Notes under the pieces: model-generated
The model's input: the letters and a program-made list of their open reading frames with translations, nothing else
Told to the model about the DNA's origin: nothing
The model's database searches: none
Source of the DNA: Astropecten irregularis
Taxonomy: Eukaryota; Echinodermata; Asteroidea; Paxillosida; Astropectinidae
NCBI GenBank assembly: GCA_963971285.1
Contig: OZ020250.1
Span: 8,416,499 to 8,480,498, forward strand
DNA: 64,000 nt
Direction: 5' to 3'
Shown: positions 12,040-64,000 of the stretch, piece by piece
Numbering within the stretch: position 1 is the stretch's first letter
Layout: each line of letters begins with the position of its first letter
Translations under genes and position numbers: made by a program

Positions 12040-12671
12040 GGCTTTTCCACGTATAAGCGAAGTTTTTCTTCCTCTTCTTCTTGTCGTCACGGCCCATAGC
12101 CTTTGCTCACGTTTTGTTTGGATACCCACTTTGGTCGTTTTAAAGCAGTCAATCTTAACCAAACTTGCTCCATGTATCGTACCTATAGGGTACATGCGTG
12201 CCCAACATTTACGTCATCATGACATTATCGAGTGACAAATTATAAGCAATTTAGATTGAATAATTAAAATCTTTAAAAATCAACAAAAAATCAACCGTCT
12301 TTCGACAAATAAATGTCAATGTTAGGGGAGGTCTTTCTTTGTGACACATCACTTGACCTCTGTGACATCTACTTCCGGTCAAACAGTAGCTCCTCATTTA
12401 AAATTGGTAAGAGCTAGGATCATGATTTTTTTCACCAAACATCAGTGTAAGGCAAGGTCTTTTTGTGACATATTTGTTGACCTCTGTGACCTCTACTTCC
12501 GATCAAACAGGAAGTAGCGCCTAATTTAAAAGTGATAAGAGCTATGTTCATGATTCTTTCGCCAAATGTCAATGTTAGGGAAGGTCTTTCTTTGTGACAC
12601 AATTCTAATTGACAAGCAATTTATATCACATGCGGACAAAAACTTATGTTTACAACAGCCAAAAACTCTAG
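12040..12671 (+). mobile_element. HINE-like (non-autonomous Helentron) element, ~630 bp
   Basis: The 5' arm GGCTTTTCC (12040-12048) is followed by a pyrimidine tract (CTTCCTCTTCTTCTTGTCG) and a body shared with the 55 kb stack (ACTTTGGTC, AACCAAACTTG, TAGGGTACATG). Three ~120-bp tandem units with CTACTTCCGGTCAAACAG follow. The 3' end has a decayed complementary arm, a small hairpin (TGTTtacAACA) and CTAG at 12668-12671 followed by T. There is no coding content. Confidence 0.65.
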
Positions 12672-18905: not shown

Positions 18906-19069
18906 ATGATGACGTCATCAAAAGGCCTAATTTATGATTGCAGCATATCTCGAGAATGAAAAATGCTATGGTAAATATTCTTTTCCCAAAAGATTTGTGA
19001 GATCCTATAGATATGCATGCTACTTTGGAAATGACCGTTGCGTCACGATTACGTCATCAAAAAGCTGTT

Positions 19070-21345: not shown

Positions 21346-21394
21346 TTTTGCTCCCATAGCGTTTTTGCCGTAAGTTTGTTTATTAATTAACTCT

Positions 21395-30239: not shown

Positions 30240-30977
30240 CTAGACATTTAAGTGTTCGTGGACGAACACGGAGCTGTTCCGACTTATTTAATCAGCTTTG
30301 TAAGCTCTGATGACGTCATGATGATGTCAGGGTCAATTTCATGGCAGCATACTCATGTACATGATGCAGCAAAGCTTTTATAAAAAGAATCATTACCATA
30401 GCATTTTTCATTCTTCAGATATGCTGCAAACAAAAAATCAGGCTTTTTTGATGACGTCATGATGTCATCATGTTCATTTTTCGAAGCAATGCACAACTAC
30501 ATGATATAACAAAGCTTTTGCCAAAAAAATCATTACTGTAGCACTTACCGTTCTCGAGATATACTGCTAATCAAAAATCAGCTTTTTTGATTACGTCATG
30601 ATGACGTCACACTAAATTTCGTGGCAGCATGCACAACCACATGATATGACAAAGCTTTTGAAAAAAAAAGAATCATTTCCATAGCATTTGCGGTTCTCGA
30701 GATATGCTGCGAACAAAATTGACTAATTAAATATTCAAATGACTGTCACATGACTAATTAATAAAGAATTTTAACAAACTCAGTCTTAGGATTAACTTCA
30801 GCTTATAAGCTTTCATAATATACCACACATAAGCTTACCAGAATAAGATTATAAAAGATTAGGAATAAACAAACTTATCACACAAAGCTATGGAAGCAAA
30901 AAGTGCGAAGGTATAATAATAATAAAAACCAGAACGAAAACTAAACCTGTTCCGACATCAGAAATGTCGGAACAGCT
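30240..30977 (-). mobile_element. HINE-like element, family 2, complete
   Basis: Read on the minus strand. The 5' end is AGCTGTTCCGACAT, loop, ATGTCGGAACAG (30976-30947), followed by GTTTAGTTTTCGTTC. The interior has about four ~137-bp tandem units with TGACGTCAT-ATGACGTCA. The 3' end has the complementary arm GTCGGAACAGC (30283-30273), a perfect 8-bp hairpin GTGTTCGT/ACGAACAC with a two-base loop (30269-30252), then TTAAATGT and CTAG (30243-30240) followed by T. The asymmetric arms, 3' hairpin and T-T insertion fit Helentron-derived HINEs. Confidence 0.75.
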
Positions 30978-33032: not shown

Positions 33033-33412
33033 CCAATTACTTTAAATCAGTCAGTTTTCCTTGTGGTTATTTGATAATTATATTTATTTATTTATTTATT
33101 ATAAGTAACATAGCTTTTTGTGCTTATGCTTTAAATACTTTTTAGAATACTATCTTCGCTTTTGCTTTTCCTTTTCCCTTCGGAATGTTCTATTCTTTTT
33201 AATATCATATTTAATATTTGTCCCTTTTTGTCTTTTGTAATTTGTTGTCTATTTTCATATGCTTTTAATGTAAATTTTTTTAATTATGTCTTATAATGTT
33301 AATGTCTTTAACTTTCACCTTTCTAATGTTTTTAATTGTTCAATGGGACCCATGGGAGAGTAGTTTTGGTAACTGAATGCGTTCCCCAGTATAGCTAAGA
33401 AATAAATAAATT

Positions 33413-33596
33413 GCAGCATATCTCCAGAACGACAAATGCTTTAGTAATCATTCTTTGTGTAAAATCTTGCATCATGTACATAAGTATGCTGCCATAAAAC
33501 TGACCGTGATGTCATCATGATGTCATCAGAGCTTATAAAGTTGATCAAATAGGCCAAAACAGCTCCGTGTTTGTACACGAACACTTAAATGTCTGG
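33413..33596 (+). mobile_element. HINE family 2, 3' end
   Basis: One tandem unit (GCAGCATATCTCCAGAACG ... GATGTCATCATGATGTCATC) is followed by a decayed arm (CCAAAACAGC), the hairpin GTGTTTGT-ACACGAACAC (33567-33584), TTAAATGT and CTGG (33593-33596), then T. CTGG in place of CTAG still fits the CTRR pattern. Confidence 0.65.
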
Positions 33597-33611
33597 TTAG
33601 TTGTTGGGACA

Positions 33612-34362
33612 GTGCTGGTGTCGGAACAGATATTGTTTTCGCTCGGATTTTCCACTGTTATTAGCTGTTCCGACATTGCCGATGTCGGAACAATAATTGT
33701 ACGAAAGTGGACTTAATATCTACTATTTAAGGCCGGATTGTAAATCTTGTGCATAAGAATAGTAAGAATAAAACATTTCAGCTCTATAACTATTACCATT
33801 ATCACGTTATGGCCTTGAAAAAATGCACGATGACACGTTTTCGCGACTCGGCCGTGGGCGGAGCTAAAAAGGGGGGTTTTGAGCAAATTTCTGTATCTCA
33901 AAAACGCTAAGGCCCATGAAGGTTATTAGCTGTAGGTTTAGTTTTCGTGCTGGTTTTTAGCTGTTCCGACATTGCCGATGTCGGAACAGGTATTGTTTTC
34001 GTTCGAATTTTTCACTATTATTATTCTTTATCGTCCAGATTTTGTTTATTGTTTATCTCTTCTTAGCTTCTTCCGATCAGCTAAGATGAGGTATCTTCTG
34101 AAAGCTTTTTAGCTAAGGATCATTCTGACACAGAGTTGTAAACATTCTTAATTGATTAGCCAAGTTACAGTCATTTGAATAATTAATTAGTATTATAGTA
34201 AATTTTGTTCGCAGCGTATCTCGAGAACGACAAATGCTACGGACATGATTCTTTTTGCAAAAAGCTTGGTTATATCATGTGTTGTGCATGCTGCCACGAA
34301 AATGACCGTGACGTCACTATGAAGTCATGATGACGTCATCGAAGTCTAAATTTGTGATTCCT
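33612..34362 (+). mobile_element. HINE family 2, stacked 5' ends and body
   Basis: Three successive 5' ends are seen. The first is a half hairpin (GTCGGAACAGATATTGTTTTC, near 33620). The second is a full hairpin at 33666-33692 (TGTTCCGACAT, loop, ATGTCGGAACA). The third is at 33961-33989, followed by GTATTGTTTTCGTTCG. The body after 34000 includes one tandem unit (34210-34345). No 3' hairpin is present, so the last copy is truncated. Confidence 0.6.
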
Positions 34363-35331: not shown

Positions 35332-38300
35332 ATGCCGCAGTGTTCAGCATTTGGATGCAACAACCGCTCCGGTAAAGGGCTGCCCTTTACGTTTCATCGG
35401 TGGGTTATCGCATTAATATTATAAAATCGTGATTCTCATAATTTTACGGTGAACTGTATAGTAGTACAGTGTCCTCTTTCAATGCGTAGACGAAAACAAA
35501 AATGGAAAATGGGCATAAAAATATGACTAAAGACAGGCTCAAAAGCGATAGGCCTAGGCCAAACTTAGGCAGTAAGGCTTAACTATTAATGTAACTAACT
35601 GTTAGGCCTAGGGCTAGGCCATGTACTTTTTTTGTAGACCTAGCCCTAGGCTAATTGGGTTGTCATGATCATAGAGCTCTGTCATGATTAAGCATTTCGA
35701 GATTTTTGGCCATGGTGTATGCATTTTGCAGTAAGACATGGATTTTGCAGGTTTTGATTTGTTCATTGTTTTTGACATTAGAGTAGACCTTGGCCAGTAT
35801 TTATTTGAGAAATCTGCTACCATAAAGTTTAACACAAATAGGGTTTTAGCCTTTGAGAAAGATCCTGCTAGGATCGAAACGCGTCAGGTCCTTCTAACTT
35901 TAAGCATTTGATATAATTTCAGGTCATTTTGGCTGATGAGCAGTTTGCAACAGTTTATTACTTGTATTGACAAATAGGGGTCATAAAAAGGCATCAGAGA
36001 AAATATTGCCGGAGGTTGAAAAATTTTGGAGGAAATTCTTTTTTTTTGCCTAAGCTAAGGCTAAGCCTTCATACAGCCCAGGTATACAGATCATATCATA
36101 ATAAAGAATTTTCCAGTCTTGTTCAAAAACACATGGTGACAAAAGGTATTTGTTAATGAGTAAGGAGAACTTTTCTTTTATTCTGTCACAAACTTAATTG
36201 TACAATTATTGCCTTGTATTTACAAATTAAGGCCAAAGTGATTTAAAAAACAACTAACTAGGCAACAAAACAATACAACTATACAAGTGAATGAAATAAT
36301 TATATTGCACTAATTCAATTTGACAAAAATGGAACATATTTGTTCCTAATTTAAGGGCTATTACATAAGCATATAGAGTGTAATGTGCCAAAATGTGTTT
36401 GTAACTTCCACAGTAGAAGAGTGAAATGGGGAGGGGAGAAGAGTGATCAGGACTTTGAAAAAAAAATTCAATTTACTTTATTGTAGATCAGGATAGACAA
36501 CAAAAAATTAGGAACATAATGAGGATCTTATCAAACAAACTGCAATGCTAATACAAACGTGTATGTACCTAGCAAATTAAAAACATTTTAAAAAGCTGCA
36601 TCCTCTTTGAGTGACCCCCAAAATAATGTTCACTTTTCAATCAATAACAAAAATAGGTTGTACCTTATAATTGATGCTCAAAATGAATCAAATACACGTA
36701 GGCCTACATTTGTTGGTGCTGCATACAGGTTTCCAAAGGACAAAGAGCTATGCTGCAAATGGACTGTAGCACTGCGAAGACTGTCATTCAAGCCAACGCC
36801 TGGTGTAACAGTAGTATGCAGTGTTCACTTTAATGAGAACGACTTTGACAGGACAGGTCAAACAGTGCGCCTCAGGCCTAATGCTGTGCCAAGTATCTTT
36901 CCAGGCTTTCCCGACCATCTACAGAAGGTTAGTATTAACGTTCCAATCTTAGTCAGGTTAAGAATGAAAAATATAACAATTTACATGTATACTCTGATTT
37001 GAGGTCATTAACATTTATATTCATGAAAATAAATGGACGGTTGTTAACTTGTTGCACTCATTTTATTCATCTTTTCCACTCAAGAGTTCTCATTTCCTTT
37101 CACATTTTTGCTTGTTTTCACTCTATTGTAGGAACCTAAGCCCCCGAGAAAACCACCAGCACCAAGACTGCCCCTAGCTGCTCTCAATTCAACAAAAAAA
37201 TGTGATGCTCAAAGCAACCCAAGATCTTCTACAGTCACACCCAGTACATCAAGTGATCATCCCTATGCTCTCACATCCAGCCCAATGACACTCAAAAGGA
37301 AAATTGACCATCTGAAGACAACTTTGGAGTCCTGTAAAAAAAAACTGAAATGCAGCCAACAACATAGCCGACGCCTGAAGAAAAAGGTTGAGTCACTGTC
37401 ATCGGTTGTTGAGGAGTTGAAAGACAAAGGGATGGTGTCTGAAAACTGTGGGCAAATTCTCGATGCCACATTGTCTTCTGAGGTACCAAAAGCTGTCATG
37501 AGTAGACTGTTAAAGTACAATTGCACTGGTACACATACCCGAGAGGAGTACCCTCCCATGCTGAAAGCATTTGCTTTGACCCTGCACTTTTATTCTGCAA
37601 AAGCATACGAGTATGTTCGAGCCACCTTTGATCTTGCCTTACCAAGTTCATCCACAATAAGAAAGTGGTACAGTGCAATTGATGGATCCCCTGGATTCAG
37701 TGAAGTTGTATTCAAGGCTCTAGAGGCCAGATTTCAGGCAGAAAAGGAGGAAGGCAAAGAAACCCTCTGCGCACTAAAGCTTGATGAGATGTCAATCATG
37801 AAGTCGGTTGAAATGTGTGGAGAAAAAATCATGGGGTATGTGGACACTGGCAATGGAGTAGAGGATGACAGTCTTCCTCTAGCGACTAATGCCTTGGTGT
37901 TCATGTTGGTGGCCATTAATGGAAGCTGGAAGGTTCCTGTTGCCCATTTCATGATTAAAAGTTTGACAGGCAAAGAGCAAGCAAATCTTGTAACTCAGTG
38001 CCTCTTGAAATTGCACGACATAGGAGTGCCTGTTATTTCCCTCACCTGTGATGGACCCTCGGCACATATTACCATGCTGAATGAGCTGGGTGCAAGCATA
38101 TGTCCAGGAAACATGAATTCATCATTCACCCACCCTGCAAATCCTGGCCAGAAAGTTTGGGCTATGCTGGATGCTTGCCATATGCTGAAATTGGCAAGGA
38201 ACTGCCTAGGGACCTTGAAAAAGCTGAAGGATGGAGATAATCGACCAATTGAATGGAAGTACATTCAGAGATTGCATGATATCCAGAACAGGGAGGGGTT

Positions 38301-39591
38301 GCGGTTAGGAAACAAACTCCGTCAAAAGCACATAGGATGGCAAAAAAACGTGATGAAGGTGGACACGGCGGCACAGACTTTGAGTGCAAGTGTAGCAGAT
38401 GCCATTAAGTACTGCCGTGAGAGTCTGAAATTGCCAGAGTTTCAAGGAAGTGAGGGAACATGTCACTTCATTGAGATATTGGACCATCTCTTTGATATCC
38501 TGAACTCCAGAAACCCACTAGCAAGGAATTACAAGGCACCACTCAAGTATGGTCGTGAAAGGTTGTTTCTGCCATTCTTAAATTCTGCATACAACTACCT
38601 TGCTACAATCACAGATAGTACTAATAAGAAGGTTATGACTTCGACGCGCCACAAGACATCATTCATAGGCTTTATGGCATGCATCATGAGTGTGAAAAAT
38701 ATCTACACAACGTATGTTCAGGCAGCAAATTCGCCACTGAAGTACCTGCTAACATACAAGCTAAGTCAGGATCACATTGAACTATTCTTTGGTGCAATTC
38801 GCTTGTCATGTGGCTCCAATAACAATCCGACTGTACGACAGTTTACATCTGCATACAAGCGTCTCCTGATGCGGCATGATGTGAAAACTAACAAGGGGAA
38901 CTGTTCACCTCAGGATGCCACAAGGATTCTTGCAGCAGCATCTTTCAAGAATATAGTGAAGCAGGCTGTTCCCGATGAAAGTCACGACATGCTGGTAGCA
39001 AGACGGTATAACTTGGAGCTGCAACCACCAGTGACTGATGATCATGACTATGCAGATATTCCCAATGTTCCTGCCCTGTCTGCTTTCGTCGAATCCTGTG
39101 TGGGATACATCGCTGGTTACGTTGTCAAGATGGTGAAGCGGACCCTGAAATGTACAGAATGTTTAGATGCATTAACCACTGGTAGCATCAGTGAGGATCC
39201 CTCACCCTCATACTCCCTCATCAAAACGAAAAACAGAGGTGGTCTCATCATCCCAGCATACAGTGTGGTGAAGGTATGTGAGGCAACTGAGCGCTACATA
39301 AAAAGGCTCTTGATCACCACAGACGGAAAAATGCCAACGCAATCTGGAGTAAAGAGTGCCATCTCTACTTCTGTCTTGTCTGAAGTGGGTGCTATCACAT
39401 TCAAGGATCTTAATGAACATATGCTAGACAATGAGCCAGATAACAACCACATCTTCAGCCTAATATGCTATATATCAAAATGCTATAGCAAAATAAGGCT
39501 TCATCATGCCACCAGGACACAGAATGAGAACCTGCAAAACAATCCAATAAGGAAGAAGCTGACCAAACTGATATTATTTTCAAATCAGTAA
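35332..39591 (+). CDS. P-element/THAP9-like transposase, three exons, 908 codons
   Basis: Exon 1 is 35332-35399, exon 2 is 36729-36927 and exon 3 is 37132-39591. Splice sites are GTGGGT/ACAG and GTTAGT/TGTAG, and phases join cleanly (68 + 199 nt = 89 codons). Residues 1-89 form a complete THAP zinc finger: C4, C9, C53, H56, with W34 and the AVPSIF box at 75-80. A lysine-rich coiled coil follows at about 141-190. The Tnp_P helix-turn-helix region ([16 protein letters not shown]) is near 229. The RNase-H-like catalytic core has acidic residues D307 (KLDEMS), D396 (LTCDG), a [11 protein letters not shown] segment at 436-446, and E639 in [13 protein letters not shown]. It is predicted to be a nuclear DNA-binding protein that excises and inserts this transposon through the flanking TIRs. 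No disabling change was seen. The start is chosen because THAP domains begin within a few residues of the N-terminus. Confidence 0.92.
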
Positions 39592-42715: not shown

Positions 42716-42789
42716 TATGATACACGTAGATCGACATCGGGGTCGATAGAAGCACGGCAATAGCGCCACCAAGTATTTTAACTTGACGT

Positions 42790-43412
42790 CATGAAATGGC
42801 TGAATTTTGTTTGCAGCATATCTCGAGAACGACAAATGCTATATGGTAATGATTCTTTTTGAAAAAGCTTTGTTAGATCCTGAAGATGTGCATGCGACTG
42901 TGAAAATAAGTGTGATGTCATAATGACGTCATAAAAAAGCTAAATTTTATTTCATATCGTAAAGAATGTCTGATCGTCATGAAACTTAGTAGGTGTTAAG
43001 TCTGTGCTACCCCAAGAATGTTTTAGAGATGACGTTGTTATGACGACGTTAGAATTAAATTCTTAATTAATTAAGCACGTGACAACTCATTTGAATTCCA
43101 TTTCATTAGTAAATTTTGTTTGCAGCATATCTCGAGAACAACAAATGCTATTGCAATGATTCTTTTTGTCAAAGCTTGGTTACATCTTGTAGTTGTACAT
43201 GCTGCTATGAAAATGAACATGACGTTATCATGTCATCAAAAGGCTGATTTTTGTTTGAAGCATATCTTGTGAACAACAAATGCTATGGAGATAATTCTTT
43301 TTGCAAAAGCTTTCTTAGATCCTCTAGGTAGCATGCTGTTTTCAAAATGAGCGTGACGTCATCGTGACGTCTTCCGAGCTTATAAAGCTGATCAAATAAA
43401 GTCGGAACAGCT
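42790..43412 (+). mobile_element. HINE family 2 body with 3' arm, end destroyed
   Basis: Four ~137-bp tandem units (GCAGCATATCTCGAGAACGA ... GACGTCATAATGACGTCAT) are followed by the 3' arm GTCGGAACAGC at 43401-43411. The expected hairpin is cut after GTGTT, where sequence of the TTAA-target MITE family (TATACGTAAATCTGTGA) takes over. Confidence 0.65.
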
Positions 43413-43479
43413 CCGTGTTATACGTAAATCTGTGAAAATTTCTGTTAAATTATTTCGTTAAATTTTCTTTATTAAATAT

Positions 43480-49399: not shown

Positions 49400-49665
49400 T
49401 GTGGCGTCCGTGCCGGTCGGCCGCCAGAGGGCACCAGCGCGGTTCCACGGTGGAGCCGCGCAGTGGAGCCCCTGGTGGCCGGCCGGGGAGGCCCGTTCTT
49501 CCGGGCGGCGCATGCGCAGTGGTATTGTCGTGGCCTCGTTGCTGAAGTGTTTGTGGTGTATGTTTTTGTGGAAATAAACAGCCTGAAGCAGCAGAAACGA
49601 GTAAACCTGTGTTGAGAGTCCTTTCGTGGAGTGCGTGTGAGGAACCTCAAGTGTTCGACGCTACA
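49400..49665 (+). repeat. Gypsy 5' LTR, 266 bp
   Basis: TGTGGCGTCCGTGCC to GTGTTCGACGCTACA. It contains AATAAA at 49573-49578. It is followed by TTGTTGGCAGCGGCGG, a candidate primer-binding region. Confidence 0.93.
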
Positions 49666-49969
49666 TTGTTGGCAGCGGCGGCACGCAGAAGGCGGAAAAC
49701 AGGTGAATTTTTCGGAGATTTTCTGCAATGAATTCAGGAGATCACGGAAGTCTGGCACCTAACTCGCCACACGGCGAGGAGGCAGGCTGGAGTGCGGGCT
49801 CACGTAGTGGGGGCCCGTCTAGTGGATCAGCCAGCAGTACCTTCGTCACGGTGGACGAGTTGGAATCCTTTTTGCGGGATGGTCAAGTGGAATTTCGGGA
49901 CTTGGGCGGGGGGCTAAGTCATTGCAGTACGTCTACCCCTGCGGGGGGGTGGGCGTGCTCATGACCATA

Positions 49970-50425
49970 AATCATCAATGACTGGTACCCTGTCCCACGA
50001 GGGGCCGCCCCGTGCTGTAGACGGCGGCGCAGCAGACGGTTCGTTCCAATCGGAACGATCCCGAGTTGTGCTGATCGATGCAGCGGGGTGGAGCTTCGTC
50101 GGGATATACCCCAGATATTCTGTAACAACACAGTATATGCCAGGTCCCACGAGGGGCCGTCCCGTGCTGTAGACGATGGCGCAACATACGTTTCGTTCCA
50201 TTCGGAACGATCCCGGTTTGTGCTGTCCGATGCAGCGGGGGCGGGGCTTCGTCGGGACATGCCCCAGTTTGTTGGTAATAAAGCCGCATGTGTCGGGTCC
50301 CGCGAGGGGCCGCCCCGTACTGTAGACGCTAGCGCAGCACACGTTTCGTTCCATTCGGAACGATCCGGAGCTGTGCTGGTTGATGCAGCGGGGGCGGGGT
50401 TTCGTCCTGAGGCAACCCGCAATCC
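49970..50425 (+). repeat. Three ~155-bp tandem units within gag
   Basis: Each unit contains TCCC-CGAGGGGCCG-CCCGT, a CTGTAGACG, TTCGTTCCA-TCGGAACGAT and GATGCAGCGGGG-CGG, then GGGGCTTCGTC. They are in-frame multiples encoding SHEGPPRAVD, SFHSERS and DAAGAG-type blocks. Confidence 0.8.
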
Positions 50426-50654
50426 CTACGCTCATGAAAATAGTACTGAAGCGCCACTCGGTGCTTACATGGATACGACTTGTGTGGCCTCCCATTCGGG
50501 GCGCCCCCAGGCTGGATTTGCCCATATAGCGGGGGCGGGAGACCGTCCGAGCACGCATCAGGCGGCACAACTGGGCGCGGATCTCCCCCAGCAGTACTTT
50601 CGTCCCCACTATTGCAGTGCGGCGAGTCCTGACCTCCACTCGGAGCAGGCCCGC

Positions 50655-51115
50655 ACTGCACGACTCTATGGCGCGGAGCCGGCAAGGTTGCTCCGCGCGG
50701 GAGTCAATGGGGCAGAGCTGCTCCGCACACAAGTCAATGGGGCGGAGCCGACAGAGTTGCTCCGCACGGACGTCTATGGCGCGGAGCTGGTAAGGTTGCT
50801 CCGCACGGGAGTCAATGGGCCAGAGCTGCTCCGCACACAAGTCAATGGTGCGGAGCCGACGAGGTTGCTCCGCACGTGAGTTTATGGGGCGGAGCCGACG
50901 GAGTCGCTCCGCACACAAGTCAATGGGGCGGAGCCGACAGAGTTGCTCCGCACGGACGTCTATGGCACGGAGCCGGCAGCGTTGCTCCGCACGGACGTCT
51001 ATGGCGCGGAGCCGGCAAGGTTGCTCCGCACGGGAGTCAATGGGGCAGAGTTGCTCCACACACAAGCCAATGGGGTGGAGCCGGCACGGTTGTTCCACAC
51101 ACAAGCCAACGGAAC
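50655..51115 (+). repeat. Coding minisatellite (TGCTCCGCAC units) within gag
   Basis: About a dozen units of 30-42 bp, all multiples of 3, built on TGCTCCGCACG, GTCAATGG or GTCTATGG and GCGGAGCCG. One frame translates as LLRTxVNGAE(P) repeats. All three plus frames and one minus frame stay open, which produces a spurious 437-codon minus ORF. Confidence 0.85.
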
Positions 51116-51912
51116 GGAACCGACCCGGCTGCTCGGCCGTACTCCACTGCAGTTGGGAGATCCCCTGGGACGTCACCACCCGGTGCTCCCAGGGGGGGCC
51201 GACCCGGTTTCTGCCGATGTTTGGACGGCCCCTAAACAGGCGGGGGGGGCGCGCTCCCCAAGTGCCAGTCAAGCGGGGGACTACAACGCCTGATCACTTC
51301 GGGCCGGGGGGTCGGAGACCACTGATGCTCCCCAACAAGTTTGACGGGATCTCGTCATGGTCGGATTACTTGATCCATTTCGAGAGCGTTGCAGCAGTCA
51401 ATCAGTGGGGCGAGGCGGAGAAGGCGATGTTCCTTGCAGCTCACCTAAAGGGCGCGGCCCAGGAGGCATTGGCGGATATGGTACCGGAAAAGCGGAAGGA
51501 ATATTCCTCCATTTTGGAAAACTTCGAGCAGCGGTTCGGGGTGACAGCACAGATTCCACTACATCGGGCTCAGTTGTCTATGCGTACGAGGGGCCGAGAC
51601 GAGTCACTCAATAGCCTAGGACAATCCATCCGACGGTTGGTGTTGAGGAGCTACCCGAAGCTGCCCACACAGGCCCGTGAGGATTTGGCGGTCGAGGCTT
51701 TCCGCAATGCCCTGCGAGAGGAACAGCTGCAGCGTCACATCTTCTCCAGGAAAGAACGACTTTGACCGAAGCCGTCACTCTGGCGACCGAAATGGAAGCA
51801 TTTCTCGAGTCGCAAGCGCAAAACAGAAAAGTGAAACCGATGGCTAGAGACGTGAGGTCGGTAGCCCAGCCTCCTCCAACCCCTGCTGAGGAACCCAAAT
51901 CGGCGCGCCCAG

Positions 51913-53436
51913 GTGGAGTGCTATGGGGGCCACGAATTTGGACACATCAGGCGGTACTGCTCTCCGAAACGGCAGTCTGCCTCCTTCCAACCAGGGGAGG
52001 TGCAGGTGGGAGCCATTATGGGGGCTGGGCAGGAAGAAGCCACAACCACGGAAGGGCTCCTGGGAGCCTGGGACCAGGAAGAACTCAAACAGGAACAACG
52101 TAGTGACCCAGAGCTGGACAAGATCGTGCGGTGGCTGGAAGACGGGGTCCCCAAACCCAGCTGGCGGGACGTCTCGGCGCTGGGTGAAGGCCCAAAGTAC
52201 TGGTGGGCTAAGTGGGAGACGCTGCGGCTGTCCCAGGGCGTATTGCAGGTGAAGTGGGAGCAGCCCAATGGCGAACCGCCGGTATGGAAGGTTGTGGTAC
52301 CACGGGTGAAAGTCGACGACGTTTTGCGACTGGCGCATGACAATAGGACTTCAGGACATTTGGGGATTACCCGGACCGTCGCGCGGCTGAGACAGGCCCC
52401 GGTGTTCTGGAGGGAGATGCGACGCCAGGCAGAAGATTGGTGTCAAAAGTGCCACAAGTGCGGGTCAAAGAAGTCATCTCCTCGACCCCTCAAGGCCCCA
52501 CTTCAACAGTACCTGGTAGGGGCCCCGATGGAGCGCCTCGCGATCGACCTCACGGGTCGATTTCCGAGGACGAGGACAGGGAATTCTAGTATCATGGTGG
52601 TGGCCGACTACTTTACGAAGTGGGTGGAGGCGTTTCCGATTCCGGACCAGACTGCTCAGACTGTCGCCAGAGTCCTCGTCGAACAGGTCATCACCCGGTT
52701 TGGAGCTCCCCTCGAGATCCACACGGATCAAGGGAGGGAGTTCGAAGCCGAGCTCTTCCAGGGCACCTGTAAGCTGCTCGGCGTCCAAAAGACCCGTACC
52801 ACACCGTTCCACCCCCAGTCTGACGGGATGGTGGAGCGGTTCAACCGCACAGTCAAGACGATGCTGAGCCTGTTTGTTCATGAGAACCAGGACGATTGGG
52901 ATGAACACCTACCGTACGTGATGATGGCGTACCGCTCCTCCCAGCAAGATAGCACGAAATTCACGCCCAACATGCTGATGTTCGGCCGGGAAGTGCGACT
53001 CCCGTTGGACCTGGTGGTGGGCCAGCCGGAGAAACCAAAGGCAGGCGCAGCAGAGCACGAATATGTGGAGGGGTTGAGGACAAAGATAGAGTGCGCCCAC
53101 GAGTTTGCCCGTCATCTGCGGAAGAGCCAGACATATCAAAAGCGACATTACGATCGTCGAGCAGAAAGTGCCAGCTATAAGCCTGGCCACCCTGTGTGGT
53201 TGTATACCCCCTCCAAGAAAGTGGGTCGCACGCCCAAGTTGCAGTGCTGGTGGGACGGGCCCTTCGTGGTGACACAGAAGATCGATGATGTCACGTTCCG
53301 CGTGCAAAAATCCCCTCGAGCCAAAGCCAAGGTGGTTCATTCCAATCGGCTTAAGCCGTATCTGGGCGACGCCGAAGTGGACTGGTGGAGGCACGTAGCG
53401 CAGAACCTGCCAAAAGGGGGACCGCCACCAACTTAA
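51913..53436 (+). CDS. Gypsy zinc knuckle fused directly to integrase
   Basis: The frame starts with a damaged knuckle (CYGGHEFGHIRRYC, second Cys replaced by Gly). It goes at once to the integrase N-terminus: HHCC region H-SGHLG ... WCQKCHKCG (52340-52470). The catalytic core follows with AIDLTGRFP near 52543, HTDQGREFEAEL near 52720, and FHPQSDGMVERFNRTVKTM near 52810, so all three DDE acids are present. The C-terminal domain has GHPVWLYTP and LQCWWDGPFVV, then HSNRLKPYLGD. Protease, RT and RNase H (normally about 2 kb) are missing between knuckle and integrase. TAA at 53434-53436 ends the frame, and the same frame stays open beyond it. Confidence 0.9.
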   Translation: MECYGGHEFGHIRRYCSPKRQSASFQPGEVQVGAIMGAGQEEATTTEGLLGAWDQEELKQEQRSDPELDKIVRWLEDGVPKPSWRDVSALGEGPKYWWAKWETLRLSQGVLQVKWEQPNGEPPVWKVVVPRVKVDDVLRLAHDNRTSGHLGITRTVARLRQAPVFWREMRRQAEDWCQKCHKCGSKKSSPRPLKAPLQQYLVGAPMERLAIDLTGRFPRTRTGNSSIMVVADYFTKWVEAFPIPDQTAQTVARVLVEQVITRFGAPLEIHTDQGREFEAELFQGTCKLLGVQKTRTTPFHPQSDGMVERFNRTVKTMLSLFVHENQDDWDEHLPYVMMAYRSSQQDSTKFTPNMLMFGREVRLPLDLVVGQPEKPKAGAAEHEYVEGLRTKIECAHEFARHLRKSQTYQKRHYDRRAESASYKPGHPVWLYTPSKKVGRTPKLQCWWDGPFVVTQKIDDVTFRVQKSPRAKAKVVHSNRLKPYLGDAEVDWWRHVAQNLPKGGPPPT

Positions 53437-54897
53437 GACCAGGAGGTAACGCTACCACCGAGTCCGTCGACTGACACTACCCAGGAGGATCCGGCGGATG
53501 GGGTGGGTGGTCAGTTAGCCAAGGAGGGACCACTACCAGTTGAGACGGGGAAGGGGACACTGCCGGAGGCGACGGCGACTGCCGCCCCCGGAGGACTGCG
53601 CAGCGAGGATGACGGATCCGATGCGGAATTGGCCAAGCCCGAAGGCGGACAGCCCTCTTCACCACCAGCGGCGCTGGCTCCTGGGAGAGTCACCCGGGGT
53701 GGCCGGAAGATAATCCGACCAAGCCGTTATTGCCAACAAATAACCAAGTGCTCTTCTTTGTCTTCCCCCTGCAGGATGGACCCGGCCCCGATTCATTGCC
53801 CGCACTGTGACCAGACGTTCGGGAGGAGGAGGAACTTAAAGAGACACCTCAACACCGCGTGTGTGGCGCTCCACCCGGAGCGCCCATACCCCTGCCAGAG
53901 AGGGTGCGGAGTCCGTTTTTGTAGGGCCGATGTCCGCACCAGACACCACCGGTTCTGCCAAGGAGACAGCGTGGCCGTGGTGATGGCGGAGGCCGATACA
54001 CTGGAGCTGCACGCCAGTGACGACGACATGGGACAGGCCCCGTCCCCGCCTCATCTCTCCCGGCAGGGGACCCCAGACCCACCTCCATTCGGACGGTGTG
54101 GTCCGGCAGGACGGTCCCCGTCGCCGCCGCCACTAAGAAGACGGGTAAGTCCAGTGTCGTCAGGGGGGCCGGGGGGCCGAGACCACCCGGAGCGGTCCTC
54201 CCGGCCTTCCCGCCCTGAACAGGACAGGTCGCCTGGTCGGCGGAGCCTAGACCGGGCCGAGCGACCCTGCCAGCCACCACCCCGGCGGAGTCCCGACCGG
54301 CGGTTCTCCTGGAGCCGTGCCCAGGGCAGGCGTCCTCGCTTCAGCAGGGCAGAGGAAGCAAGCCCTGGTCGCCCCCAGCCGACACGGGTGGAGGGCGGAA
54401 CACAGACGGAACCCCCGATGTCCCCTGGGGTTCCGGTCCAACCGTGGAATGGCCAGCGGAGGGTTCTGCCGGCCGGGTCTCGGGTGAGCCTTCCGGACGG
54501 GACCTCGCTGCGACTGGAGACGGCCGGCGCCCTCCACCCGGACAACACCACCAGGGAGGCCGCCACGCACATGCTGGAACCCCTGTGCGAGCATGCGCGG
54601 GACGAATGGCGGCTCGAAAGGACATTCCATGGAGCGGACGAGGCCGGCCACCGGCTGATGCGGACACGGGTGGTCCGCACCTGTGAAGTGCCTGGGCGTC
54701 TCCTGCAGACGTACCAGGGACAGCAGTACGGCAAGCACTTCGTAGATCCCTCCGTGTCCGCCCAACCTTCACTGGGAGGAATGCTGCCCCCTGGAGCGCC
54801 TCCACCCCCACGCTACCCCGATGGTGTCCCCCAAGAGTTCTGGGAGCAGCTGTTCCGGCAGACGGAGTTCCAGCGCCGGCCGCCACCCACCAACTAA
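53437..54897 (+). CDS. Accessory ORF after integrase with two C2HC fingers
   Basis: In frame with integrase after its TAA, 53437-53745 looks like a Pol tail ending RGGRKIIRPSRY. A pyrimidine tract and AG (53773-53774) sit just before ATG at 53776, so the 373-codon protein could be made from a spliced mRNA, as env-type genes are. Residues near 6-31 form a C2HC finger (CPHC, 12 residues, H, 4, C). A second degenerate finger follows (CQRGC...HHRFC). Then comes an Arg/Ser/Pro-rich stretch and a non-repetitive C-terminal region (EHARDEWRLERTFHGADEA, TYQGQQYGKHFVDPS, FWEQLFRQTEFQRR). No transmembrane segment is seen, so it is not an envelope. The function is unknown. Nucleic-acid binding is plausible. 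Confidence 0.7.
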   Translation, partial: DQEVTLPPSPSTDTTQEDPADGVGGQLAKEGPLPVETGKGTLPEATATAAPGGLRSEDDGSDAELAKPEGGQPSSPPAALAPGRVTRGGRKIIRPSRYCQQITKCSSLSSPCRMDPAPIHCPHCDQTFGRRRNLKRHLNTACVALHPERPYPCQRGCGVRFCRADVRTRHHRFCQGDSVAVVMAEADTLELHASDDDMGQAPSPPHLSRQGTPDPPPFGRCGPAGRSPSPPPLRRRVSPVSSGGPGGRDHPERSSRPSRPEQDRSPGRRSLDRAERPCQPPPRRSPDRRFSWSRAQGRRPRFSRAEEASPGRPQPTRVEGGTQTEPPMSPGVPVQPWNGQRRVLPAGSRVSLPDGTSLRLETAGALHPDNTTREAATHMLEPLCEHARDEWRLERTFHGADEAGHRLMRTRVVRTCEVPGRLLQTYQGQQYGKHFVDPSVSAQPSLGGMLPPGAPPPPRYPDGVPQEFWEQLFRQTEFQRRPPPTN

Positions 54898-54930
54898 AAC
54901 TTTGATTTCTTGTTCTTTCCTTGCATTTTT

Positions 54931-55065
54931 AGGTGTTCGGGTTCAAGCCGAACACCTATTGTTATTGTTCGAGTTTTTTTTTTTTTTTTGGCTTTTCCGA
55001 TTTGAATCGGAAAAGGTATTGTTTTTGTTCTGTTTTTTTTGGCTTTTTCGCGGAAGCGAAAAGCC
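54931..55065 (+). repeat. Three stacked 5' terminal hairpins
   Basis: Hairpin A is AGGTGTTCGG, 7-base loop, CCGAACACCT (54931-54957). Hairpin B is CTTTTCCGAT, loop TTGA, ATCGGAAAAG (54992-55015). Hairpin C is GGCTTTTTCGC, loop GGAA, GCGAAAAGCC with one bulged T (55041-55065). Poly-T runs of 16 and 8 separate them. Confidence 0.88.
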
Positions 55066-55329
55066 TTTATTTTTGTTCTGTTTTTTTTTTTTCTTCTTCC
55101 TCTTCTTCTTGTCGCTTGAGTTACCATAGACTTTTTCTCTGCGGCACTTTGGCTACTTTTGAACTGCCGATTTTAACCAAACTTGGTGTGAAGGAAGTCC
55201 ATATAGGGTAGTTGTCTCCCGAAAATGTTCAACATCATGACGTCATCAGGTGTCATGTGACAAGTGATTTGAATTTAATAATCAAAATCTTCAAAAATCA
55301 ACAAAAAATCAACGGTTTGAGATATTAAC

Positions 55330-55745
55330 TTGATTCTTTCACCAAAAATGATTGTTAGGCAGGGTCTTTCTTTGCGACACATTGCTTGACCTCTGTGACC
55401 TCTACTTCCGGTCAAACAGGAAGTAGCTCCTCATTTAAAAGTGGTAAGAGCTAGGATCATGATTCTTTCACCAAATATCAATGTTAGGCAAGGTCTTCCT
55501 TTGTGACACATTGCTTGACCTCCGTGACCTCTACTTCCGGTCAAACCGGAAGTAGCTCCTCATTTAAAAGTGTTAAGAGCTAGGATCATGGTTCTTTCAC
55601 CAAAAGTAAATGTTATGCAAGGTCTTTCTTTGTGACACATTGGTTGACCCCTGTGACCTCTACTTCCGGTCAAACAGGAAGTAGCTCCTTGTTTAAAAGG
55701 GGTAAGAGCTAGGATCATAATTCTTTTACCAAAAGGCAATGTTAG
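55330..55745 (+). repeat. Tandem ~122-bp units, HINE family 1, array 1
   Basis: Three to four units with CTTTGTGACACATTGCTTGA, CCTCTGTGACCTCTACTTCC, GGTCAAACAGGAAGTAGCTC and AAAGTGGTAAGAGCTAGGAT. Differences between units are few. Confidence 0.85.
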
Positions 55746-55842
55746 GGAAGGTCGATCTTAGCGGCAAAATTCTTATTGAAAAGAAATTTATATCATATGC
55801 GGAAAAGCCTTATGTGCTGTTTTCAACAGCCATAAACTCTAG
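55743..55842 (+). repeat. HINE family 1 3' end, first of four in the stack
   Basis: Arm ATGCGGAAAAGCC, hairpin GCTGTT-ttc-AACAGC (55816-55830), CATAAACT and CTAG (55839-55842), followed immediately by T and the pyrimidine-rich head of the next body. Equivalent ends are at 57441-57444 (hairpin GCTGTT-tct-AACAGC), 58865-58868 (CTGT-tttc-ACAG) and 60743-60746 (GTGGT-tgtt-ACCAC). Confidence 0.82.
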
Positions 55843-56458
55843 TTTCTTCTTCTTCTTGTCGTTTGAGTTACCATAGACTTTTTCTATGTGGCACTTTGGC
55901 TACTTTTAAATTGCCGATTTTCATCAAACTTGGTCTGGAGGAAGTCCACATAGGGTAGTTGTCTCCCGAAACTTTTCATTGTCATGGCGTCATCAGGTGT
56001 CACGTGACAGTGTCTTAAAGGGGCAAACTTCAGACATCAATTATGAACGAACCCTAAGTCCGATTGAGTTGAAACTTGGTATGTATCTAAGTCGGGAAGT
56101 GTTATATCGAAAATTTGCAATGACGTCATGATGACGTCATTCACAGATTTTTTATGATTTATTGAAATTTTGGGTCATTAAAGTTCTTTTAACGATATCT
56201 AGTAAACGAAACAAGATATCTTTGAATTTCTTTTTGATAATTCTTCAGCATACACCATAGATGAACACTGCATAGACAAAAATTCTGTGACGTCATCATG
56301 ACGTCATAAAAAATGCGATTTTTATAACACATAGTAGGAACGGCCGATCGCCTCGAAAATTGGTAGGTGTGGGATTTGGCGGTTGGGGATCGTAATTATG
56401 AAGTTACGTCAAGACAGCGTGATCATTTGATTTTTTATGATTTTTTAAAATCTTTTTC

Positions 56459-56645
56459 ACGCTAGCCCATTGACTTGTACAGAGCTAGCTCTGTACGTTG
56501 CATGTGCAACAATTTACTTAGACCGCTTTCAATGCATGGCGCCCTCTTTGGACGCTAGCCCATTGACTTGTACAGAGCTAGCTCTGTACGTTGCATGTGC
56601 AACAATTCACTTAGACCGCTTTCAATGCATGGCGCCCTCTTTGGA
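56459..56645 (+). repeat. 93-bp tandem duplication with palindromes
   Basis: Two copies in tandem differ at one base (AATTTACTTAG / AATTCACTTAG). Each contains the perfect palindrome ACAGAGCTAGCTCTGT followed by ACGTTGCATGTGCAAC. A single diverged copy of the start is present at 58080. Confidence 0.85.
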
Positions 56646-56699
56646 TTAAAACAAGAAACTGCGGTGGTGTCAGTAAGTTATTTTAAAAATCAACAAAAA

Positions 56700-57300
56700 C
56701 GGTTTGAGATATTAAGTTGATTCTTTCACCAAACGTGATTATTATGCAGGGTGTTTCTGAGAGACACATTGCTTGACATCTATGACCTCTACTTCCGGTC
56801 AAACAGGAAGAAGCTCCTCATATAAAAGTGGTAAATCTCTTTTATGATTTTAATTCAATAATCAAAATCTTCAAAAATCAACACAAAATCAACGGTTTGA
56901 GATATTAAGTTGATTCTTTCACCAAAAGTGATTGTTAGGCAGGGTCTTTCTTTGTGACCCATTGCTTGACCTCTGTGACCTCTACTTCCGGTCAAACAGG
57001 GAGTAGCTCCTCATTTAAAAGTGGTAAGAGCTAGGTTCATGATTCTTTCACTAAATATCAATGTTAGGCAATGTCTTTCTTTGTGACACATTGCTTGACC
57101 TCTGTGACCTCTACTTCCGGTAAAACCGGAAGTAGCTCCTCATTTAAGAGTGGTAAGAGCCAGGATCATGATCCTTTCACCAAATGTCAATGTTAGGCAA
57201 AGTCTTTCTTTGTGACACATTGCTTGACCTCTGTGACCTCTTCTTCCGGTTAAACAGGAAGTAGTTTGCCATTTAAAAGTTGTAAGAGCTAGGATCATGA
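56700..57300 (+). repeat. Tandem ~122-bp units, HINE family 1, array 2
   Basis: Four to five units of the same family as 55330-55745, with an interrupted first unit near 56820 and an AT-rich insertion after 57300. Confidence 0.8.
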
Positions 57301-58359
57301 TTTTTTTTTTCATTTATTATGTACCATTGAGGGATCCCTTTCTTTAATATAATATTTAAAAGCATATTATATATCTATAAATCAATTTAAAATACCATAT
57401 GCGGAAAAGCCTTATGCGCTGTTTCTAACAGCCATAAACTCTAGTTTTTTCTTCTTCTTCTTCTTCTTCTCCTCAATTTGCATTGACTTTGTACACAAAT
57501 TTTGTCCGCGGCACTTGGGTCATTTTTAAACAGCTGATTATAACCGAACTTGGTCTGATGGAAGTCCATATAGGGTAGTTGTCTCCCGAAACTTTTCGTC
57601 ATCATGACGTCATCAGGTGTCACGTGACAGTGTCTTAAAGGGGCAAACTTCAGACATCAATTATGAACGAACCCTAAGTCCGATTGAGTTGAAACTTGGT
57701 AGGTATCTAAGTCGGGAAGTGTTATATCGAAAAATTGTAATGACGTCATCATGACGTCATTCCCTGATTTTTTATGATTTATTGAAATTTTGGGTCATTA
57801 AAGTTCTTTTAACGATATCTAGTAAACGAAACAAGATATCTTTGAATTTCTTTTTGATAATTCTTCAGCATGCACCATAAATGAACACTGCATAGACAAA
57901 AAATCGGTGACGTCATCATGACGTCATAAAAAATGCGATTTTTGTAACGCATAGCAGGAACGGCCAATCACCTTGAAAATTGGTAGGTTGGTAAAATGGA
58001 GGTTCGGGATCGTAATTATGAAGTTACGTCAAGACAGCGTCATTTGTTTATTTTTTATGATTTTTTAAAATATTTTTCACGCTAGCCAATTGATTTGTAC
58101 GTGAAAATATTGGTCATTAAATGCAAGGCGCGGTTGATTTGGTTGATTGCCTGTGTTATATATGCCGCATTTCTTTTCATTTCTTTATCATAGTTGCCAG
58201 CGTAAATACTGTTTTGACAAGACAACTACGCATGCGTAACAATCTACCTTTGAAGTAATGCATGAATCGAGCACACGGTTTTGAATGGCGCCCTCTTTTG
58301 ATTTAAACAAGAAACTGCGGTGGTGTCAGTATGTTATTTAAACATCAACAAAAAATCAA

Positions 58360-58725
58360 CGGTTTGAGATATTAAGTTGTTTCTTTCACCAAACGTGATT
58401 GTTAGGCAGGGTCTTTCTTTGTGACACATTGCTTGACCTCTGTGACCTCTACTTCCGGTCAAACAGGAAGTAGCTCCTCATTTAAAAGTGATAAGAGCTA
58501 TGATCATGATTCTTTCACCAATAGACAATGTTAGGGAAGGTCTTTCATTTGTGACACATTGCTTGACCTCTGTGACCTTTACTTCCGGTCAAACAGGAAG
58601 TAGCTCATCATTTAAAAGTGGTAAGAGCTGTGATCATGATTCTTTCACCAATAGACAATGTTAGGCAAGGTCTTTCATTTGTGACACATTGCTTGAAGTA
58701 GAAGTAGAGGTCACAGAGGTCAAGC
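58360..58725 (+). repeat. Tandem ~122-bp units, HINE family 1, array 3
   Basis: Three units. The last ends in a short inverted piece (ACATTGCTTGA, then complement to TCAAGCAATGT near 58686-58730), so it can form a local hairpin. Confidence 0.8.
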
Positions 58726-58868
58726 AATGTTTCATAAAGAACATTGAAATAATTGATACTTTTAAACCACATGTCTTAAACTGACAAAATAAGTTATACA
58801 ATTTGAGAAATGTTCTATATCATATGCGGAAAAGCCATGTGTTCTGTTTTCACAGACACAATTTCTAG

Positions 58869-60742
58869 TTTTTTTTTATTTGTCTTCTTCCCAAACTTGT
58901 CAGCAGGACTTCTATATGACAGTTACAACATTTTGACATGAAACTTGGTGGGAACTTTGGTCATGATGTCAAGTTGTACCTAGAACATTGACGTCATGAT
59001 GACGTCATCGGGTATCAAGTTACGAGCGTTTTTAGGAAAAACTTTGGTGCTCCATAACTTAAGAACAGCATGACCTACGATTTTGATATTGACATATGTT
59101 ACTCAACACGTAAATTTGAACAATTAATATATTCAGTCTTGTGTACAAATGACCTTCACTTCCGGTGTTACCGGAAGTTGAAGTTTGACTTAAAATAACT
59201 CGAAAACGGAAGGATTTGGGCAAATAAAGTATATCTGGCTAAAAGATAGAGAAGGTCTTGGGCTTTCAGAAAATATAAACGATGACGTCATGCGAGCTAT
59301 ATAGCGCCCTCTACGGTTGGTTAAAGATATACAGTGATTACGTAATCCAAAAGTAAACAATGGATTTCTGCCATATTCTGTAGGTGTGAAGCACAAATGC
59401 ACTTTGACATGTATGTGAAGTTTAAAATTTGTGACGTCATTCAACCGGAAGTTATGCTATTTTAAAGGGAAAATGACTTAATTATTCAAATACTGTTTAC
59501 TCAGTAATTACATGACGTACATCAGTGAAAACTGCAAAGTATTTACATTGCATGCATTCAATGACGTCTGTAAATGTTCAGTTACTTGTGATGAATTAAT
59601 TGGAAGTTATTGTCCAGACAATGTTATATATATTTAAAGGTGATGCCATGTATATACCTCCATGGTATATAACTTCTTATCAGATCTTTGAATCAATTTG
59701 TTTACTCAACCATTTAAGGTATCATTAACTAATTGCCTGCTTCAGTGTTGATGTGATTACAAGAGACTCTGATTAGTACCAGATGGCAGTCACTGCAAGG
59801 TGATTGGAATGTGCTTCATTTATGTTGTCTCAGTGGAAACACATGATAGCCTCCACACAGGAGTTTGATACACCTCATACACTTTTAAACAGTCAATAAA
59901 CCATACAAAGGCCCAGACAAAGTTCCCACATCGTAGATGTGAAGTGAACATTTACGGCATCTCTTGATTTTATATGAATTTTTAAATATTTCTCACATTA
60001 GCCTGTTAACTTTGTACACATACGTGTACATGTGTTACGTGAAAATATGGTATTTTACAAAAAAATATGTTGATCGATTGACTCTTTTTCCCATACACTA
60101 TATATACGCACATAATTCACTGTGTAGAACATACATGTACATGTACATGTACATGTAATTTTAAATATGATGTACATGTACATGTAATGTCCAATTGCGT
60201 GACTCAAAACTTTGTTTAGTTGTTTACATCTTGCCATAGATATTTGTACATAAAACTTTTTATATATCATTAAATACCAGCACCAAATCTTAATCGAAAT
60301 GCTATCGATGTAGGTTGCGGAGTATTGAACATCATTTTTTCAAATGACAGTGTGTTCCATAAACACTGCAACTAAATGTATGGGCTAAAATTACGGGGTT
60401 TTTTTACGTTGAGATATGGTCACTTTTAGACCATATGTCTTAATCAAACAAAATAAATCTGCAACATATTTACATCATATTTAAAATTATTGTCGATACA
60501 ATATTATATATATTTAAAGGTGACGCCATTTCCTATAATCAATCAGTCAATGTACAGTACAAATAAGCAATCAACGTGGTCAAAGTATTTGTACAGTCAC
60601 GCAGTTTATGTGTACATATGTTTCAATATGCCATCATATGAGGGATGATTGATCACATATATTCCAACATACGTTCATATAACAGTTCCACTACGAAATG
60701 AGACCCCCGAACACCTAGTGGTTGTTACCACAAACACAATGT
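58869..60742 (+). other. Body of the outermost HINE element, diverged
   Basis: Starts with the T-rich, CTTCTTCCC head typical of family bodies, then TGACGTCATGATGACGTCATC, GACCTTCACTTCCGG and related blocks. 59500-60700 is AT-rich with a TACATG microsatellite (60130-60185). No gene is seen. The 3' end at 60743-60746 belongs to hairpin A's family. Confidence 0.5.
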
Positions 60743-60879
60743 CTAGTTTCTTTTGTTGTTGTTTTGAATGCTGTAGTAATTTTGTTGTGTCATGCGCCTC
60801 CGGGCCGGGTCTTCCTGGTTGTCCGGTTGCGGATGCCGGCGCCCTGTTAAGGGACAAACAAGGTCCTCGAGGGGGGCGG

Positions 60880-61145
60880 TGTGGCGTCCGTGCCGGTCGG
60901 CCGCCAGAGGGCACCAGCGCGGTTCCACGGTGGAGCCGCGCAGTGGAGCCCCTGGTGGCCGGCCGGGGAGGCCCGTTCTTCCGGGCGGCGCATGCGCAGT
61001 GGTATTGTCGTGGCCTCGTTGCTGAAGTGTTTGTGGTGTATGTTTTTGTGGAAATAAACAGCCTGAAGCAGCAGAAACGAGTAAACCTGTGTTGAGAGTC
61101 CTTTCTTGGAGTGCGTGTGAGGAACCCCAAGTGTTCGACGCTACA
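60880..61145 (+). repeat. Gypsy 3' LTR, 266 bp
   Basis: Identical to the 5' LTR except for two visible substitutions (CTTTCTTGG for CTTTCGTGG, ACCCCAAG for ACCTCAAG). Preceded by polypurine GAGGGGGGCGG and followed by GTAT. Confidence 0.93.
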
Positions 61146-63445: not shown

Positions 63446-64000
63446 GGCTTTTTCGCGGAAACGAAAAGCATTTTTTCTGGTTTTTTTTTTTTTTTTTTTT
63501 TTTTGCTTTTTCGCGCAAGCGAAAAGCCTTTATTTCTGTTCTGTTTTTGTTTTCCTTCCTCTTCTTCCTCTTCCTCTTCTTGTCACCAAAATCCCCATAG
63601 AAAAAGCACAGGGGCATTCTAGACCTCACTTTGGTCACTTTTAAACAGCCGATTTTAACCAAACTTGGTCTGAAGGAAGTCCATAATAGGGTAGTTGTCT
63701 CCCGAAACTTTTCGACATCATGACGTCATGACTTGATTTTATATGAATTTTTTAATATTTCTCACACTAGCCCGTTAACTTTGTACACAGATTACGTGAC
63801 AATAATGGTCATGTACAAAACATTCATTTCGTGATTTTATGTTCTCGATATAATTTTGTATAAATATTCTATTCCGCAGGCCTATTTATATGCAAAATAC
63901 AGTCACCATCGGTCCCCCATCGGCCCGACCTCGGCTGGACGACCATTGTTAGTACACACGGTGGTCCGTTTTACACGGCCGTTTCATAGTGGCACCACCA
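63446..64000 (+). mobile_element. HINE family 1, two stacked 5' ends, runs off the window
   Basis: Hairpin GGCTTTTTCGC, loop GGAA, ACGAAAAGC (63446-63469), then a ~24-base T-run. A second hairpin GCTTTTTCGC, loop GCAA, GCGAAAAGC (63505-63527) follows, then CTTTATTTCTGTTCTG and a pyrimidine tract. The body (CCGATTTTAACCAAACTTGG, AAGTCCATAATAGGGTAG) matches the 55 kb stack. The 3' end is outside the window. Confidence 0.75.

Follow-up and report, generated by a model that had tools for sequence, protein, structure and literature searches.

In a 64,000-nucleotide stretch of the sea star Astropecten irregularis (assembly GCA_963971285.1, contig OZ020250.1, positions 8,416,499 to 8,480,498 of the forward strand), referred to here as the window, positions 54931 to 60746 are occupied by a stack of elements with three 5' hairpins placed back to back on the left and four 3' ends following each other on the right. 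We consider it highly probable that this feature consists of nested insertions of non-autonomous rolling-circle elements of the Helitron2/Helentron type (HINE-like), for which the T-tract behind the hairpin of a resident element served as the insertion site. This reading is based on direct observations, namely the pairing of outer versus inner ends, the T flanks, the homologous position of insertion and the recurrence of the arrangement elsewhere in the window. The stack is composed of the following parts, with z values obtained from single-strand DNA folding.

54931..54989, + strand: HP1 module of the outer element A, with hairpin AGGTGTTCGG/CCGAACACCT, linker and a run of 16 T (z -6.9)
54990..55040, + strand: HP2 module, with hairpin, linker ATTGTTTTTGTTCTG and a run of 8 T (z -7.3)
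55041..55092, + strand: HP3 module, with hairpin, linker and a run of 12 T (z -3.7)
55093..55842, + strand: body 1, with 129-bp tandem repeats, a 3' subterminal inverted repeat (subTIR) CGGAAAAGCC at 55800, 3' hairpin and CTAG
55843..57444, + strand: body 2, with a 3' end of the body 1 type and not preceded by its own 5' hairpin
57445..58868, + strand: body 3, with a subTIR of the body 1 type; on the simplest reading it would be the rest of the HP2 element (element B)
58869..60746, + strand: body 4, the rest of the outer element A, with the 3' subTIR CCGAACACCT at 60707, 3' hairpin and CTAG

The hairpins proper extend over 54931-54957 (HP1), 54990-55017 (HP2) and 55041-55065 (HP3), so that all three lie within 135 bp (54931-55065), and the four 3' ends, each consisting of a hairpin and CTAG followed by T, terminate at 55842 (E1), 57444 (E2), 58868 (E3) and 60746 (E4). 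An earlier reading of the sequence (the first-pass annotation) had reported these hairpins and termini, and its coordinates and letters hold. It had also called the three hairpins unrelated, which had to be corrected, as HP2 and HP3 are relatives that agree at 40/48 aligned positions (83%). In each 5' module the hairpin is followed by a similar linker (approximately ATTGTTTTTGTTCTG) and then by the T-run (at 54974, 55033 and 55081 for HP1, HP2 and HP3), whereas each 3' end presents a subterminal copy of the arm, a short hairpin and CTAG. The 3' hairpins of E1-E4 are statistically weak (z -1.6 to -2.4). When the 120 nt behind each of E1, E2 and E3 were scanned for hairpins, none of the 5' terminal type was found; there was no hairpin at all past E2 and E3 and one hairpin of 7 pairs past E1, starting 48 nt behind it, and the first 58 nt after E1, E2 and E3 fold weakly (z -2.3, -1.5 and -1.0, respectively). 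No open reading frame (ORF) of at least 150 amino acids lies wholly within the stack, and no full-length relative of body 4 was found in the window.

This architecture was also recovered by a de novo scan for hairpins with CTAGTT for which an inverted copy of the upstream arm is present in a self-paired 5' hairpin. The scan yielded 7 overlapping k-mer hits per strand, those on the plus strand corresponding to the stack and those on the minus strand to one element of a third HINE-like family of the window (family C, described below). The same scan gave 0 hits in 30 order-2 Markov sequences.

Pairing between the termini was examined by comparing the reverse complement of the first 12 nt of each hairpin with the terminal 65 nt of seven 3' ends, a list that omits two decayed or truncated ends (~12031 and 43419) and in which the end at 33.6 kb (its CTGG ends at 33596) was scored from 33594, making its distances 2 nt too small. 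The HP1 arm matches E4 in 11 of 12 nt, at a distance of 30 nt from the terminus, but E1-E3 at only 6/12. Conversely, the arms of HP2 and HP3 match E1, E2 and E3 equally well (10/12 nt, at 32-33 nt from the end) but E4 at only 6/12. For comparison, three family C hairpins match the end of the solo element of that family at 12/12 nt, at 32 nt. The outer pair HP1/E4 therefore encloses an inner group of ends. The earlier statement that the first hairpin pairs with the last 3' arm is thereby confirmed, and the accompanying statement that the inner hairpins match the inner ends is correct for the group but not one to one, because HP2 and HP3 fit E1, E2 and E3 equally.

Back-to-back 5' modules were found at three further loci (63446, 33599 and 33928; hand count), most of them with one weak or decayed partner. 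The related features of the window are as follows.

63446..63504, + strand: stack 2, first 5' module, with a run of 24 T and a weak hairpin (z -0.6)
63505..63557, + strand: stack 2, second 5' hairpin module (z -2.0), with a relative of body 1 behind it that continues past the window edge
33599..33662, + strand: stack 3, degenerate 5' module of family C (alpha), cut at CACTGTTATT
33663..33692, + strand: stack 3, second 5' hairpin (beta); the sequence behind it is not a family C body
33928..33958, + strand: stack 4, remnant of a 5' module from which 23 nt of hairpin are deleted, with linker and a run of 5 T retained
33959..34328, + strand: stack 4, intact 5' hairpin (gamma) with part of a body, seated in the run of 5 T of the remnant
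30240..30977, - strand: complete solo element of family C with stack-type architecture, 738 bp from hairpin to CTAG (delta)
12040..12671, + strand: decayed related element, head-to-tail behind another decayed 3' end (~12031), not nested
30240-30977 (- strand), 18903-19079, 21330-21824, 33411-33596, 42784-42948 and 43057-43419: full or partial copies of family C

Family C, with the arm TGTTCCGAC, contains repeats of about 140 bp with palindromes of the TGACGTCATCATGACGTCA type.

A T directly precedes 11 of 11 hand-listed 5' modules, and TT directly follows all 7 listed 3' ends, six of which end in CTAG (E1-E4, the end at 12671 and the solo element) and one in CTGG. Related uninterrupted 5' ends within the window serve as empty sites. 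If HP2 is joined to the flank after E1 or after E2, the layout of the uninterrupted HP3-body 1 and 63505 elements is obtained. Similarly, alpha breaks off at 33663 where its uninterrupted relatives gamma (33959) and delta on the minus strand continue, and the remnant at 33928 breaks off where delta continues. End pairing, the uninterrupted 5' ends and the further loci thus give good support to the proposal, made from the letters, that elements inserted in nested fashion into the T-tract following a resident 5' hairpin. The idea that the three hairpins form one fixed unit is unsupported in the window, which contains a solo element with a single hairpin as well as a different hairpin pair at 63446.

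The stack itself is located within a Ty3/gypsy-like retrotransposon, between the last long ORF of this host (ending at 54897) and its 3' long terminal repeat (LTR).

49400..49665, + strand: 5' LTR, with GTAT directly before it, identical to the 3' LTR at 264/266 positions
51865..53436, + strand: integrase ORF, with the Pfam domains rve, Integrase_H2C2 and Integrase_p58_C
60880..61145, + strand: 3' LTR, with GTAT directly after it

Among the best 120 of 980 matches of the integrase ORF, the first is Patiria miniata LOC119731418, with 80% identity across 73% of the query. In the three frames of the retrotransposon that were scanned (49400-61145), no reverse transcriptase domain was found, and for this reason the host copy may be incomplete. 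Near its start, at 50658-51083, there are GC-rich tandem repeats of 39 and 108 bp that lie partly inside an open frame; this frame gave no match in the Pfam scan, which covered seven ORFs of the window outside the stack bodies.

The near-identity of the LTRs provides a measure against which the age of the stack bodies can be judged. In two ungapped BLAST segments, 55/629 columns distinguish body 1 from body 2, and in one segment 50/591 columns distinguish body 2 from body 3, a divergence of about 9% as compared to 0.75% (2/266) for the LTRs (Fisher's test, P = 6e-7 and 1.3e-6, respectively). These values derive from three BLAST segments; shorter or gapped ones were omitted (among them one of 66 columns with 86% and one of 360 columns with 91% identity), and the identity in the omitted segments is in the same range or lower. 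Global alignment of the bodies leads to larger divergence, 13.5% for bodies 1 and 2 and 18.8-18.9% for the other pairs among bodies 1-3, partly because the tandem repeats misalign. Since the divergence between the bodies far exceeds that of the LTRs, bodies 1-3 would represent separate source copies that were distinct before they met here, or else the nest would have been built elsewhere and then moved. A 93-bp direct duplication in body 2 (56459-56645), with copies about 98-99% identical, looks far younger than the divergence between bodies, and near the end of body 3 (58701-58741) there is an inverted 41-bp piece of the 129-bp repeat.

These comparisons make it very improbable that the repeated bodies and hairpins stem from local tandem duplication or from a rolling-circle concatemer of one element. 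Helitrons are known to form tandem arrays (PMC12628747, PMC4067079), and HP2 and HP3 can be described as a 48-bp tandem repeat with 81% matches. However, a concatemer predicts a 5' hairpin before each body, which is absent behind all three inner 3' ends, the bodies (about 9%) and HP2/HP3 (17%) differ much more than the enclosing LTRs, and HP1/E4 belongs to another arm type. We reject in-situ tandem duplication and a head-to-tail concatemer on the grounds of hairpin order and of divergence relative to the LTRs, and with them the earlier suggestion that the fourth body arose by tandem duplication in place; the rejection of tandem duplication is relative to the age of the LTRs and would be void if a composite had been built elsewhere or the LTRs had been homogenised.

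Such a composite, that is a nest built elsewhere which arrived as one 5.8-kb element A (HP1-E4) or as multi-hairpin composites, comparable to what has been proposed for Fusarium, appears unlikely to us, albeit less so than tandem duplication. In its favor, the retrotransposon is young, yet the stack requires at least three arrivals; also, FoHelis with repeated 5' termini occur at different places and apparently moved as such (PMC5148889), and the body at 63446 is likewise preceded by two hairpins. On the other hand, the Fusarium model predicts that a composite started at HP1 halts at the first 3' end, E1, and so would not carry E2-E4. Moreover, the hairpin pairs are of different types (HP2 and HP3 versus two HP3-like hairpins at 63446) and can therefore not be plain copies of one double unit.

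A further reading, in which HP3, body 1, E1, body 2 and E2 moved as a unit because the transposase began at the inner hairpin, bypassed E1 and ended at E2, is a serious contender, although we would not bet on it. It would account for body 2 having no assignable hairpin and for four 3' ends accompanying three hairpins without any loss, and a bypass of termination that yields tandem arrays of Helitrons is known (PMC4067079). Plain loss of a hairpin also occurs in the window, as evident from the remnant at 33928 with its retained linker and run of 5 T, but the stack at 54931, unlike that remnant, holds no bare linker.

Finally, long T-runs and repeats are error-prone, and it might be suspected that copies of an abundant repeat were wrongly joined in the assembly. 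We regard this as most improbable, as near-identical LTRs with GTAT on both sides bracket the locus, outer and inner types of ends nest consistently and the type of junction recurs elsewhere in the window.

How often should modules stack by chance? By hand count, 5/11 5' modules directly precede another co-oriented module. Under random insertion this would be unexpected, with P = 6e-7 for TT sites, 6e-6 for sites of three T, 1e-4 for four and 1.8e-3 for five, and under a null mixed according to the observed flank types P = 0.002; all stacking P values are post hoc and concern few hand-listed modules, three of them degenerate. A corrected scan detected 72 hairpins on one strand and 73 on the other, and 12 of these are followed by T-rich sequence: six 5' modules, four hairpins of the stack that represent 3' hairpins or body palindromes, and two on the minus strand that look unrelated. 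Of the six hairpins passing as 5' type, four have another 5' module, either strong or decayed, immediately before them. The other five of the 11 listed modules were recognised by similarity and reading by eye.

Several points weigh against nested insertion at resident hairpins. The excess of stacking vanishes if elements choose T-runs of at least 8 (P = 0.42); a special targeting of hairpins is unsupported, as stacking is expected under this preference, and a preference for long T-runs alone may suffice to explain it. Only 6/11 modules pass the corrected scan, with two of them (HP1 and HP2) directly preceding another, 3/11 are degenerate (33599, 33928 and 12040) and the hairpin at 63446 is weak. 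No 3' ends were found for stacks 3 and 4, and for stack 2 the window edge precedes any 3' end. At 12.03-12.04 kb, one element adjoins the 3' end of another and is not inside it. Regarding the pairing, three hairpins face four 3' ends and the inner hairpins cannot be allotted to single 3' ends. The 3' hairpin of family C is likewise matched by the HP1 arm (10/12 and 9/12), but not at the expected distance. The solo end of family C is matched by HP2 at 9/12 with the expected spacing, and no hairpin agrees well with the decayed end at 12671 (at most 8/12). Gene conversion between the LTRs would weaken the age argument.

In the proposed course of nested insertion, element A (HP1...E4) would have entered the retrotransposon between its last long ORF and the 3' LTR. 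A second, related family would then have entered the T-tract directly behind the hairpin of A, and further elements would have entered the equivalent position of the second-family element. Because the T-tract sits between hairpin and body, hairpins would gather on the left and 3' ends on the right, in the manner of brackets. If the T-tract attracts insertions, every incoming element would supply its own landing site, and all copies would share one orientation because the target is the T strand. The fourth hairpin might have been lost, as at 33928, or the inner unit might have been mobilised with two 3' ends. The role of the T-tract as an attractant, the order of the inner events and this choice between loss and joint mobilisation are the parts of the scheme that we infer.

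Whether each element brings along a landing pad of its own, with the T-tract drawing later copies, including those of other arm types, into the same orientation and position, we judge to be nearly an even question, leaning slightly to the negative. If so, elements would bury one another autocatalytically throughout the genome, giving rise to arrays with multiple origins and multiple terminators, and new chimeric elements could start and stop at different hairpins and ends of such arrays.

Elsewhere in the window there is a sulfotransferase gene (59% identical to a Patiria protein and 58% to an Acanthaster protein), which, like the integrase match, points to a sea star or another echinoderm as the most likely source, and 37132-39591 contains an open frame of 819 codons with domains of the P-element/THAP9-type transposase. 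A tRNA-like stretch at 32909-32990 (GGGATTCGTACCGGCGACCTCCTGA) was noticed by eye and could be a tRNA-derived repeat. A 28-nt repeat consensus had no match to viral contigs.

Judged from their sequence, the stack elements agree with non-autonomous Helitron2/Helentron elements (HINEs) in the structural features tested, as had been suggested in the first-pass annotation. A 5' terminal inverted repeat within a hairpin is present in HP1-HP3 and weaker in stack 2 (z -0.6 and -2.0). The subterminal inverted copy of the 5' arm, expected at about 20-60 bp from the 3' end, is found at 30-33 nt in E1-E4 (10-11/12) and in the solo element (12/12) but fails in the end at 12671. A 3' hairpin downstream of the subTIR occurs in all four ends, with modest z values, and insertion between TT in T-rich sequence takes place without target duplication, with empty-site support coming only from related 5' ends of the window. 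Of the features of Helitron1, the 5' TC, the insertion between A and T and the lack of a 5' hairpin do not apply, as the 5' ends read AGG, GGC or AGC, lie in a hairpin and are T-flanked; 3' CTRR after a short hairpin is the sole canonical Helitron feature present.

Helitron2 and Helentron elements are known to insert in T-rich sequence (PMC3627910, PMC4067079). As in Helitron2 (Bao and Jurka, 2013; PMC3627910), the 5' asymmetric terminal inverted repeat (ATIR) forms a 5' hairpin by pairing with a copy of itself located downstream, and the 3' ATIR is located just upstream of the 3' hairpin, about 20-30 bp from the end; insertion after TTTT, as found in one Helitron2 family, and compensatory changes in hairpin and ATIR from family to family are further points in common. 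In contrast to Helitron2, the stack has no visible Rep-helicase gene, its elements end in CTAG and their 5' hairpin is succeeded by a linker and a long T-tract, at which nesting is repeated. Non-autonomous elements of the Helitron2/HINE kind are expected to be mobilised by a Rep-helicase, which in Helentrons comes with an endonuclease. With HINE and DINE-1 elements (Thomas et al., 2014, PMC4067079; oyster Cg_HINE, PMC7492417; Drosophila DINE-1, PMC2374699) the stack elements share their non-coding nature, subTIRs, 5' inverted repeat, 3' palindrome, central tandem repeats and T-rich TT target without duplication. The consulted passages on these elements mention no nested self-stacks that retain all 3' ends. 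Many oyster HINEs have a microsatellite such as GTCY at the left flank (PMC7492417), whereas the stack elements have a T-run and CTT.

Helitrons adjoining other Helitrons have been reported from maize and bat (PMC4067079, PMC12477314) and shuffled Helitron/Helentron loci from oyster (PMC12628747). A close parallel is the Fusarium FoHeli (PMC5148889), with several 5' ends in a row that were attributed to self-insertion, and in Metarhizium there are three copies, possibly from two insertions into a 5' end (PMC5148889). In FoHeli, several 5' ends are combined with a single 3' end, whereas in the sea star the 3' ends remain and different arm types are nested. Self-stacking, presented earlier as a new targeting habit, is for that reason only partly new, having been proposed for these fungi and being predicted by a T-run preference. 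Our literature search, mostly of openly readable papers, retrieved no described case of nested, type-matched ends with all 3' ends kept. In summary, the kind of element is known and self-insertion into 5' ends had already been proposed for fungal Helitron2, while the orderly nesting seems to be a novel variation of the arrangement. Target choice of Helentrons and the origin of Helitrons with multiple 5' ends have largely been inferred to date. Here, an animal sequence directly displays the intermediate that the Fusarium self-insertion model requires, namely nested copies that have kept their ends, with arm types that distinguish outer from inner elements and a young retrotransposon that sets a time ceiling, and it leads to the testable prediction that stacking is governed by the length of the T-tract behind the hairpin.

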